A stretch of DNA of 64,000 nucleotides, taken from Desulfobulbus oligotrophicus. Lineage in GTDB: Bacteria; Desulfobacterota; Desulfobulbia; Desulfobulbales; Desulfobulbaceae. The notes beneath the pieces were generated by a model, which was not told the origin of the DNA, searched no databases, and saw only the letters and a program-made list of their open reading frames with translations. Below are positions 2,129 through 5,324 of this stretch, in pieces. Location: contig NZ_CP054140.1 of NCBI RefSeq assembly GCF_016446285.1, forward strand, positions 1,345,501 to 1,409,500, read 5' to 3'. Within the stretch, counting starts at the first letter, position 1. Each line of letters begins with the position of its first letter. The translations under genes and the position numbers were made by a program.

Positions 2129-2627
2129 AGGTGTGGCGATCCTTGGGCATTATCATGTATTTTCAGCAGGTTTACATCCCAATCAGTTGCACCTTATACC
2201 TCTGTCTGATGTTTCGCGATAAAAAAAGTCAAGCAAATCAAGTCAATCTCTCATCTGTTGACTGAAGCATGGATATCATGAGCAGTAATGGTCACTTTCC
2301 TTGTGGTGTTGAGCCTGACTGCGTCCACTAAAACCGGCAACCGGTTCTAGTTGCTGTTTTACGGTCAATGCCTTTTACCTGTGGGGTGGAAATATCATTG
2401 AAAGGTACACAGAATGGCGGTAGCTTAAACTGTTTTTTTAATAAATAAAGCCGTCACCAACTTGGAGGACTGTTTTTCATAAATTTTGCAGTGGAACAGG
2501 GTGGAGATATGGCATTGTACCCGGCAGCCCGAGATACGGGTGGTTTAAGTGGCCGGATCGCCGGCGCGATTTAGGCGTGGCCTGTCGGTTGAAGTGAAAC
2601 AACACATGAGCGAATAAAGTGGACCCT
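2129..2627. other. Intergenic region, no gene recognised
   Basis: About 500 bp between hsdR (minus) and the hypothetical gene at 2628 (plus), so it must hold two divergent promoters. I see only a short AT-rich run near 2435-2450, a small AACCGG/CCGGTT palindrome near 2333-2347, and several very short open frames without convincing ribosome sites. No RNA gene or repeat was recognised. Confidence 0.4.
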
Positions 2628-3278
2628 ATGGAACTGTCAGTTGTTCTTCCGGAAGATATTGATGAGGTGGTTGCCGGCTACAAGGACTGCCGGCCGTTGA
2701 TCCCCATGCTGCACGGGCGGCTTGCCCAAATGGCCGATAAAGCGGCCATCAGGACCTGTGCAAAACGTTTGCACATGTTGAGCAGGCAAAACGGCAGGTT
2801 GGGTGTACGTTTTGACCATGAGCTGGAGGCGGAGGTCTTTCAGGATTACCTGATCTACATGTATCGCCCGCGGGGATTCAGCCTGGTCCGACAGCTTTAC
2901 AACCGTAAAGTTTACCCTGAAAAGAGCCTGGAACAAGAGCTGCTGGCCGGTATGGTGCAGGCCCGTTTCTCTGTCTTCTGGATCGGTGTGCTGCATCCTG
3001 AGAAGGGGTGCAGTGCTCTTGATATCATCAGCGGTGAGCAGCTGTTCATCTTGGATCAGACACTGACACAACAGGAGGCAACCGGTCTTTTGGCGGCATT
3101 TCGGGTTTTCCCCTTCCGAGGCGTTTGGGCGCATACCGGTGCCAACATGGTGTTGGGAAAAGTTGAGGACACCGCCGGGTTGCAGCCCATGGGTCGCATC
3201 TTAAACGATCAGCAGGAGCGTGAGCTCAATGAGGAGAATGTGCGGCGATGGCGCACACTGCTTGCCGGGCAGCAGTAA
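2628..3278 (+). CDS. Hypothetical protein, 216 aa
   Basis: I do not recognise this protein. The frame opens with GTG at 2619, but the ATG at 2628 (MELSVVLPED...) is the more natural start; neither has a strong Shine-Dalgarno. The product has no signal peptide or clear membrane segment and few cysteines. It looks like a soluble cytoplasmic protein with an acidic, helical C-terminus. It stands alone: hsdR is divergent upstream and the aminotransferase is convergent downstream. Protein-like composition over more than 210 codons supports a real gene, but the function is unknown. Confidence 0.6.
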   Translation: MELSVVLPEDIDEVVAGYKDCRPLIPMLHGRLAQMADKAAIRTCAKRLHMLSRQNGRLGVRFDHELEAEVFQDYLIYMYRPRGFSLVRQLYNRKVYPEKSLEQELLAGMVQARFSVFWIGVLHPEKGCSALDIISGEQLFILDQTLTQQEATGLLAAFRVFPFRGVWAHTGANMVLGKVEDTAGLQPMGRILNDQQERELNEENVRRWRTLLAGQQ

Positions 3279-3407
3279 AACGATTTTTTTGTTGACGCTG
3301 ACATGACCGGCAGGGAGGTGAAAACCCAGGAGATCGTCTGATGATCTTCAGTGCGCCTGCCCTGCGGTTCATTGTGTCTGCCGGGGGATGGTTCTATCCC
3401 ACCAGAC

Positions 3408-3441
3408 GGCTCAACCTTCAGACAAATAGACCGGTTGAGCC
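3408..3441. repeat. Inverted repeat between convergent genes
   Basis: GGCTCAACC at 3408-3416 and GGTTGAGCC at 3433-3441 form a perfect 9 bp stem around a 16 nt loop, 40-70 nt past the stop of the aminotransferase gene. No T tract follows on either strand, so it could be a 3'-end stabilising hairpin rather than a canonical terminator. Confidence 0.45.
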
Positions 3442-3480
3442 ATCCGGCAAGACCTGTTCTGCTGCTGCGGAGCGTTGGTA

Positions 3481-4752
3481 TCAATTGCTGCCGGCTGTGG
3501 GTTGTTCGGTTGAATCTTCCGGCGTCAGGGTAAAGATGCCGGCCTTGACTTCCTGTTCAATTTCCACCAGGGCACGGCGCATCTGTTTGAGAGCCTGGCG
3601 GATACGGTTTTCATTTTCCACAAGAGCCAGGCGTAAAAAACCGTCACCTTCCTCCCCGAATCCTGCCCCCGGAGCCACCGCCACATTGGCACGGTTCATC
3701 ATCTCTACCGAGAAGCGGATGGAGCCCATCTGAATAAACGGTTCCGGAATCTTCACCCAGACAAACATGCCTGCTTTAGGTTTTTCCACTTCCCAGCCCA
3801 TGCGGACCAGACCTTCGCAGAGGGCATCCCGCCGTTTTTGATAGATGGCCACCTGCTCGAGAATGGTGTCGTCGCAGTCCCGCATGGCGACAATTCCGGC
3901 CACCTGGATCGGTGAAAAGATACCGTAGTCGTAGTACCCTTTGATTTTACCGAGTCCACCGACCATCTCCGTATTCCCCACGCAGTAGCCCAGCCGCCAT
4001 CCGGCCATATTGTACGACTTGGAAAAGGAACCGAATTCAACCCCCACATCAAGTGCCCCCGGCACCTCCAGCAGTGAAGGGGCAACCTCATCATCATAGA
4101 TAATCTGGCCGTAGGCAAAGTCGTTGATCACCATAAAGTTGTACCGTTTGGCCAGCTTAATCATTTCGCTGAAGAAGTCCCTGCTGGCCAGGGTACCGGT
4201 GGGGTTGTGCGGATAGTTGAGCATGACCAGTTTGGGCTGCGGATAGAGAGACCGGCACATGGCGCTGATCTGTCGCAGAAAATCCTCCTCTGAGCCAAGC
4301 GGAAATCGTATAACGCTGGCACCGGCAATGACTGCTGCGTACACATGAATGGGAAAAAAGGGCGTCGGTACCAGGACGGTATCCCCGGTACCCAGCAGGG
4401 CAAGGCAGAGGTGGGAAATGCCCTCTTTGGAGCCGATGGTACAGATGACATCATCTTCTCCGGTGAGCTCCACATCATACTTGCGCTTGTAGTAAAGGGC
4501 TATTTCCCGTTTAAGGTTTTTCATGCCGCCGGCGGCGGGATAGCGGTGGGTTTTCGGGTCAACCGCCACCTCACACAGTTTTTCCGTGACCTTGTCGGGG
4601 GTGGGGTCCATGGGGTTGCCCATGCCGAGATCGATCACATCAATACCTTGCCATCGCTTTTCCATCTTGATCTTGTTGATGATGCCGAAAAGGTAGGGCG
4701 GCAGCTGGTTCATCCGTTCTGCAAAACGAATAGGGGACTGTGATGTCTGCAT
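3481..4752 (-). CDS. alaC: PLP-dependent aminotransferase, AlaC-like (alanine transaminase family)
   Basis: This 423-residue fold-type I aminotransferase closely resembles E. coli AlaC in the phrases IDLGMGNP, CTIGSKEG, PHNPTGT and SFSKSYNMAGWRLGY; Lys245 in the last is the expected PLP-binding lysine. AlaC interconverts pyruvate plus glutamate with alanine plus 2-oxoglutarate, and the wider group includes LL-diaminopimelate aminotransferases. I start at the ATG at 4752 because GAGGAAACAACT precedes it; the frame stays open to 4821. The gene sits behind an apparent alanine-rich leader peptide with a terminator and antiterminator (4820-4974), which independently argues that alanine is the relevant amino acid. 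It is monocistronic as far as can be seen. Confidence 0.85.
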   Translation of the reverse strand: MQTSQSPIRFAERMNQLPPYLFGIINKIKMEKRWQGIDVIDLGMGNPMDPTPDKVTEKLCEVAVDPKTHRYPAAGGMKNLKREIALYYKRKYDVELTGEDDVICTIGSKEGISHLCLALLGTGDTVLVPTPFFPIHVYAAVIAGASVIRFPLGSEEDFLRQISAMCRSLYPQPKLVMLNYPHNPTGTLASRDFFSEMIKLAKRYNFMVINDFAYGQIIYDDEVAPSLLEVPGALDVGVEFGSFSKSYNMAGWRLGYCVGNTEMVGGLGKIKGYYDYGIFSPIQVAGIVAMRDCDDTILEQVAIYQKRRDALCEGLVRMGWEVEKPKAGMFVWVKIPEPFIQMGSIRFSVEMMNRANVAVAPGAGFGEEGDGFLRLALVENENRIRQALKQMRRALVEIEQEVKAGIFTLTPEDSTEQPTAGSN

Positions 4753-4819: not shown

Positions 4820-4851
4820 AAAAAAAGCCTGAACCGTTCCGGTTCAGGCTT
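4820..4851 (-). terminator. Attenuator terminator upstream of alaC
   Basis: The arms 4825-4836 and 4840-4851 form a perfect 12 bp stem with a 3 nt loop. On the minus strand the stem runs directly into TTTTTT. It lies between the leader peptide stop (4909) and the alaC ATG (4752), where an amino-acid attenuator belongs. Minus-strand sequence at 4861-4872 (CCGGTTCATGGC) can pair with the upstream terminator arm (GCCTGAACCGG at about 4840-4850), giving a mutually exclusive antiterminator. Confidence 0.75.
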
Positions 4852-4908
4852 GCATGCAACGCCATGAACCGGAATGCCAGTCCATGGTGAGCCGTTTTTC
4901 TGCTATGG

Positions 4909-4974
4909 TTAAGCAGCAGGCGGTCGCCAAGGAACTGGAGCTATCGCCGCTGCTGCTGCTATGGAGTATTGCAT
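4909..4974 (-). CDS. Alanine-rich leader peptide of alaC (candidate)
   Basis: A 21-codon frame (ATG at 4974, TAA at 4911-4909) encodes alanine at positions 6-10, 12, 20 and 21, including five consecutive Ala codons. It is followed within 60 nt by an intrinsic terminator and then by the alanine-transaminase-like gene. The Ala-codon run can itself pair with the CCGCCTGCTGCT segment at the end of the frame, as the pause hairpin of a classical attenuator does. The weak point is the ribosome site: no good Shine-Dalgarno precedes the ATG. The inferred role is ribosome stalling under alanyl-tRNA shortage to prevent termination. Confidence 0.65.
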   Translation of the reverse strand: MQYSIAAAAAIAPVPWRPPAA

Positions 4975-5017
4975 GACAATGAGTACACTGGTTGATAGTT
5001 ATAGAAACGTATAGATG

Positions 5018-5048
5018 ATTATGTAGTGTGATCGCGAGCTTTTGTCAA
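5018..5048 (-). promoter_or_regulatory. Probable sigma-70 promoter of alaC leader
   Basis: On the minus strand, TTGACA (5048-5043) and CATAAT (5023-5018) are 19 bp apart, with alternative -10 registers one or two bases closer. The predicted start lies about 35-40 nt upstream of the leader peptide ATG. Confidence 0.5.
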
Positions 5049-5153
5049 CTCTGTTACTACGCATGAAGTATGTCGGTTATACAGATGTACAGGTAATCGG
5101 TTTCGGGCCGTACACTCCGGGCATTTGCCGGATCATATCTCTGTTGTACATAT

Positions 5154-5197
5154 CCTGCCGACCGCCGGGTTTTCACGGAGACCCGGCGGTCGGCAGG
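5154..5197. repeat. Long perfect hairpin, 16 bp stem
   Basis: CCTGCCGACCGCCGGG at 5154-5169 is exactly complementary to 5182-5197, around a 12 nt loop. It lies about 130 nt past the stop of the BASS-family permease gene and 100 nt before the alaC promoter. There is no U tract on either strand. It could end or stabilise the permease mRNA, or be a member of a dispersed palindromic repeat family. Confidence 0.6.
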
Positions 5198-5324
5198 GCC
5201 TGTGCACAGTCCGACTTCTGCCGGAATACGCTGTCTTCGATGTTGCAGATCTGTCTCCTGTTTTTAACGATACGTTTATCCCGGCAGTGCAGAACTGTCG
5301 ATCAGAGCACAATCAGGCTGTCTG

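Follow-up and report, generated by a model that had tools for sequence, protein, structure and literature searches.

Classical transcription attenuators (trp, his, leu, thr, phe, and ilv) resemble the locus described here in two respects: a leader peptide with cognate codons precedes a biosynthetic gene, and the position of the ribosome selects either an antiterminator or a terminator with a U tract. In classical attenuation the outcome is set by whether segment 2 of the leader RNA is free when its partner appears. Attenuation is known for few amino acids and, to our knowledge, alanine is not among the well-described ones. Alanine T-box leaders are also comparable, as they control transcription and sense uncharged tRNA-Ala, which the present leader would do as well. 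Apart from alaL of S. lividans, no alanine leader claim was found in the openly accessible papers searched. This leader, located before alaS, has 22 aa with 6 Ala (MNVIGRNIFATARATSSPVAAA); according to the passage available from the article (PMC8079986), it was reported as new in 2021 and is claimed to be alanine-dependent. Naville and Gautheret 2010 (PMC2965389) mention alanine nowhere. The first-pass annotation of our locus, made from the sequence alone, stated that no well-described attenuator is known to be built on alanine codons, which is nearly but not strictly true given the description of alaL in that passage (PMC8079986).

The locus belongs to a window of 64,000 nt from Desulfobulbus oligotrophicus (NZ_CP054140.1, positions 1,345,501 to 1,409,500), and its features lie on the minus strand unless marked otherwise. 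Judging by sequence comparison and modeled folds, the leader upstream of the alaC-like gene is very probably a ribosome-mediated transcription attenuator responding to charged tRNA-Ala. The first-pass annotation had interpreted it as an Ala-codon attenuator, and the comparison supports this with one amendment: the decisive switch appears to be the pairing of segment 2 with segment A. Neither segment, nor the U tract that follows an additional hairpin in most relatives, was among the elements it listed. Those that it did list, namely, promoter-like boxes, a 21-codon frame with eight Ala codons, an antiterminator segment at 4861-4872, a 12 bp terminator with U tract, and a weak leader ribosome site, were all recovered.

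Among 73 Desulfobulbaceae genomes, 21 have alaC, and 20 of these have a readable upstream region. The leader precedes alaC in 17 of these 20 and is absent in G016, G027, and G047 (two Desulfobulbus and one Desulfogranum). The 17 family genomes and Desulfobulbus rhabdoformis together provide 18 leaders from the genera Desulfobulbus and Desulfogranum. An intact Ala-run leader with hairpins before alaC is present in 17 Desulfobulbaceae genomes, and the 18th (G021, a fragmented assembly) has a broken frame, in which a one-base deletion creates a stop right after the Ala run. Examples of the encoded peptides are MKQQVAAAAAMNPVHWRPVAF, MTHMIAAAAAMNPVHWRPVA, and MLPKYYAGAAAARNMVHWHPTAPW.

The −35 box TTGACA (5043..5048) is exact in 18/18 Desulfobulbaceae leaders, and the −10 box TACATA (5020..5025) keeps its distance from it, the spacer being 17 nt in the window copy and in all 18 leaders. 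Transcription would start near 5013. The leader ATG is located 38-60 nt downstream of the −10 box in the 18 leaders. In the window, the frame MQYSIAAAAAIAPVPWRPPAA (4909..4974) has 21 codons, 8 of which are Ala, five of them consecutive. An in-frame ATG and stop are kept in 17/18 Desulfobulbaceae leaders and also occur in 12 alaC leaders from other parts of the phylum; G642 has GTG as its start. The control codons GCA GCA GCA GCG GCG (4945..4959) are invariant at codon positions 1 and 2 in 18/18 leaders, and in each of the last four Ala codons the third position varies. The run comprises 4 or 5 codons, and its distance from the ATG differs by multiples of three among Desulfobulbaceae leaders. 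GCR runs of five occur in only seven places in the 3.1-Mb window genome. A frame and cognate-codon run of the ribosome-mediated attenuator type are conserved at the sequence level, and the frame would presumably be translated. As for the ribosome site, no Shine-Dalgarno pairing precedes the window leader (0.0 kcal/mol) and it is absent in several relatives too; in most relatives it amounts to −3 to −7 kcal/mol.

Codon choice within the run differs from that of the gene. In the 17 intact Desulfobulbaceae leaders GCG or GCA account for 71 of 79 run codons, compared with 159 of 552 Ala codons in the alaC genes, which, unlike the runs, favor GCC. The window genome has only UGC and GGC in its tRNA-Ala set, and the GCG/GCA bias of the Desulfobulbaceae runs indicates that UGC may be the isoacceptor sensed. 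Leaders of a second order have mixed Ala codons, so sensing of a single isoacceptor may hold only in Desulfobulbaceae.

The leader RNA contains a chain of arms with the alternative pairings 2:A, A:B, B:C, and C:D. Segment 2 (AGUUCCUUGGCGA, 4924..4936) overlaps the leader codons after the Ala run, and its pairing is kept in relatives with compensatory changes. Segment A (UCACCAUGGACU, 4879..4890) is the partner of 2 in the ON state and of B in the OFF state; segment B (CCGGUUCAUGGC, 4861..4872), which is exactly the antiterminator segment listed earlier, joins A in the OFF state and C in the ON state. Segments C (GCCUGAACCGG, 4839..4849) and D (GGUUCAGGC, 4827..4835) are partners in the C:D intrinsic terminator (4825..4851, 12 pairs, loop of 3, U tract 4826-4820), which sits between the leader frame and the alaC-like gene. 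The ON state therefore combines 2:A with B:C, and the OFF state A:B with C:D. All four helices are kept when the arms are taken from each Desulfobulbaceae sequence. The A:B hairpin (4862..4887 in the window) would itself be a first terminator where a U tract is present: it is followed by 6-10 U in 11/18 Desulfobulbaceae leaders, so 2:A would disarm two terminators there. The window copy has lost this U tract.

Compensatory changes are found in both ON helices, i.e., in an antiterminator (2:A and B:C) that excludes A:B and C:D. At the first 2:A pair, which falls on a third codon position, 12 of the 18 leaders have A-U, 5 have G-C, and one has U-A; the genome with U-A no longer forms the competing A:B pair, meaning that the change tracks 2:A. 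Similarly, a B:C pair changes from G-C to A-U in the window genome and in G024, its closest relative. Helix 2:A of the window genome contains C-U and C-A mismatches, and 5.8% of shuffles do equally well. The covariation scores count cells and not independent events, though separate changes are present in G017, G021, and the second order. In the MAFFT alignment A1 the ON helices score 0.138 vs 0.086 in shuffles (reached by 0/500), with the OFF helices barely above shuffles. In a set of 25 sequences, pairing reaches 96.8% in the ON helices, whose covariation is 0.308 vs 0.205 in shuffles (reached by 0/500) and 0.135 for the best slide, the respective OFF values being 94.7%, 0.257 vs 0.192, and 0.105.

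Both alternative structures that the first-pass annotation proposed to look for by folding are predicted, and the compensatory stem changes and conserved Ala-rich frame that it proposed to seek in upstream alignments are present in Desulfobulbaceae and also in the second order. RNA that stops short of B folds into 2:A in 29/29 leaders (18 from Desulfobulbaceae and 11 from the second order), and in the 18 Desulfobulbaceae RNAs spanning segment 2 to just before B this helix has 8-11 pairs. Full-length Desulfobulbaceae leader RNA prefers OFF in nearly all cases and is otherwise balanced. The outcome would thus hinge on segment 2 being free when A emerges. Regarding the geometry, the last Ala codon and segment 2 are separated by 11 nt in 16/18 Desulfobulbaceae and by 9 nt in 11/11 second-order leaders, and the stop codon lies 9-15 nt past segment 2 in intact Desulfobulbaceae leaders and 18-24 nt past it in some genera outside the family. 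Judging from ribosome footprints, segment 2 would stay open with the ribosome on the first Ala codons and would be at least partly covered with the ribosome at the stop. The spacing lets a stalled ribosome free segment 2 and a finishing one cover it, masking being less clear with later stops; for a stop as far as 24 nt from that segment, full masking by a ribosome at that position is doubtful. A protective 1:2 hairpin is predicted in some genomes only and not in the window genome. Since no consistent hairpin holds segment 2 without a ribosome, an untranslated leader may read through, unlike that of trp.

In the proposed mechanism, RNA polymerase would start near 5013 and a ribosome would translate the 21-codon leader. 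When alanyl-tRNA is short, the ribosome would stall in the Ala run, leaving segment 2, at 11 nt from the last Ala codon, free to pair with A once A is made, so that B is left for C. Formation of B:C would then block the C:D terminator, and A:B would be blocked where it carries a U tract, allowing transcription of alaC. When alanyl-tRNA is plentiful, the ribosome would reach the stop codon, which lies 9-15 nt after segment 2, and mask that segment, in which case A:B and C:D would form and transcription would end before alaC.

Other readings of the leader have to be weighed against this mechanism. The tail after the Ala run (V-H-W-R-P) is conserved in Desulfobulbaceae, which would agree with a nascent-chain arrest peptide that stalls on a ligand or protein and not on starved Ala codons. 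However, the conserved codons are precisely the segment 2 codons, and their covariation with A falls partly on third positions. No conservation is seen in the final residues ahead of the stop, and in the second order the tail differs (SAW, TAW, PAW, and SALA) while the Ala run and 2:A pairing persist. Such a peptide is considered very unlikely. Somewhat less likely still is a metabolite riboswitch or protein-bound RNA, in which the Ala frame would be a by-product of a GC-rich hairpin. Rfam reports no leader family at the window leader with gathering or permissive thresholds, giving weak sub-threshold matches only, and there is no Rfam match to a T-box sequence and specifier stem. The full leader is indeed very stable and has a closing helix (the 216-nt RNA folds at −73.2 kcal/mol, z = −4.3, with 0/200 shuffles equally stable), but no conserved pairing of the Ala-codon strand is found in the leaders compared. 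Fixation of Ala codons at positions 1 and 2 with freedom at position 3, length changes that keep the frame, and swaps of the cognate codons to Trp and Phe/Tyr within the same layout also speak against such an RNA.

The least likely of these readings is a small RNA or an unregulated tandem terminator with an untranslated frame. A plain terminator would have no need of 2:A and B:C, which are conserved and covarying, and the unit recurs upstream of alaC orthologues, although its discrete promoter-to-terminator extent of ~190 nt and the lack of a ribosome site in the window genome would suit such a reading.

The attenuator reading can further be followed beyond the family. A sequence pattern of the Desulfobulbus tail, run against 84,980 genomes, proved too narrow and missed other orders: it matched only Desulfobulbus and Desulfogranum, its three further matches being chance sites and not leaders. 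The other orders were reached with covariance models, the first of which (R1) was built from the 18 Desulfobulbaceae leaders. In family f6 R1 detected a decayed copy before alaC in G093, reading MKIH, a stop, RQKRAAAAKALRVR, and another stop. The other f6 alaC orthologues have neither Ala frame nor promoter, only scattered unrelated hairpins. Ala frame and terminator are absent together in genomes without the leader, and the pattern named in advance as contradicting the attenuator, a terminator kept without the Ala frame, was not seen, as frameless alaC orthologues also lack promoter and terminator. A search of 395 sampled genomes from the phylum with R1 located Ala leaders upstream of alaC in family f103, and a protein search showed that 11/11 alaC orthologues of this second order (families f103 and f84) carry one, with peptides such as MNAAAAAARKTAWATVGDVTKP and MSRTSTLSAAAAATGSALAAAR. 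Their segment 2 (CAGCC-UG-GGCG) and segment A (CGCCA-UGGGCUG) differ in letters and pair in the same way. A third family has one alaC leader (G412, MKIKPASLAAAAATSTVPAIHGCE). These 12 leaders, like the 17 intact ones of Desulfobulbaceae, combine the Ala frame with the promoter spacing, the alternative helices, and the terminator.

The second R1 match in G036 and most other weak R1 matches in the class are ordinary terminators or belong to unrelated genes. In L162 of G036, a gene resembling peptide chain release factor 3 is directly preceded, on the reverse strand at about 1501-1630, by two consecutive terminator-like hairpins that carry U tracts, with no leader frame evident.

A broader covariance model (R2) recovers the two-hairpin layout with other codons. 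It occurs in other Desulfobacterota with WWW or WWWW before TrpB-like genes (L231, L232, L239, and L242) and trpE (L233), and, in Phe/Tyr and Leu cases that rest on one to three loci each, with FFYFYF or FYFYF before PRK06836-type aminotransferases (L243, L244, and L247) and with the Leu-rich frame MRLFQLLTLCLKLLVPG before leuA (L246). The codons suggest that these PRK06836-type enzymes are aromatic aminotransferases. L234 has the same layout with a Leu-rich frame and no clear downstream gene. An Ala-run leader SAAAAATAAS with a hairpin precedes a different aminotransferase, PRK06855 (L241, G586), suggesting that this enzyme makes alanine. Gene families were checked at L230, L231, L232, L233, L241, L243, L244, L246, and L247, and the TrpB-like, TrpE, LeuA, PRK06836, and PRK06855 matches are above their cut-offs. 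Rfam has no match in L231 and L233, the two Trp leaders scanned. Where the gene is unambiguous (Trp), the control codons match its product, which supports the same reading of the Ala run. It is fairly likely that Desulfobacterota share an attenuator of the double-hairpin type, with both successive hairpins disarmed by a single early pairing and with codons that match the gene: Ala with alaC and a second aminotransferase, Trp with trpB-like genes and trpE, Phe/Tyr with PRK06836-type genes, and Leu with leuA.

The gene controlled in the window (3481..4752, start codon ATG at 4752) encodes a 423-aa protein with a PF00155 domain. It had been called AlaC-like in the first-pass annotation, and indeed its best NCBIfam match is the alanine transaminase model NF006033 (E. 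coli-type AlaC), at 503.7 bits below the cut-off of 647; the second-best is LL-diaminopimelate aminotransferase. Its substrate is therefore not certain from these matches. A protein of ~219 aa, the window copy of which has no Pfam or NCBIfam match, is encoded at 2619-3278 (+) and in L166 at 2886-3536, convergent with alaC here and in G017. On the other side, a near-perfect long palindrome (CCTGCCGACCGCCGGGT...ACCCGGCGGTCGGCAGG, 5138-5213), single copy in the genome, separates the alaC promoter from a bile-acid/ACR3-like transporter gene.

A conserved alanine attenuator would extend attenuation to an abundant amino acid near central metabolism, and its four-arm, two-hairpin chain represents a variant that is compact and testable. 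As the amino acid sensed can be read from the codon run, such leaders offer a substrate assignment for ambiguous aminotransferases (alanine, LL-diaminopimelate, or aspartate). If the reading of a shared double-hairpin attenuator is true, codon runs would reveal substrates of uncharacterized aminotransferases, and the alanine form would be the first alanine attenuator of a biosynthetic gene to have comparative support.

In comparison with classical attenuators, the alaC leader would sense alanine, has a four-arm A-B-C-D chain in which 2:A would disarm two successive hairpins, and carries segment 2 inside the frame, just past the control codons, with no clear 1:2 hairpin. Unlike alanine T-box leaders, it has no T-box match, and a frame of Ala codons would do the sensing. 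As for S. lividans alaL, the passage available (PMC8079986) describes control of alanyl-tRNA synthetase and a longest Ala run of three and gives no comparative support, whereas the alaC leader precedes a biosynthetic gene and is backed by about 30 loci.
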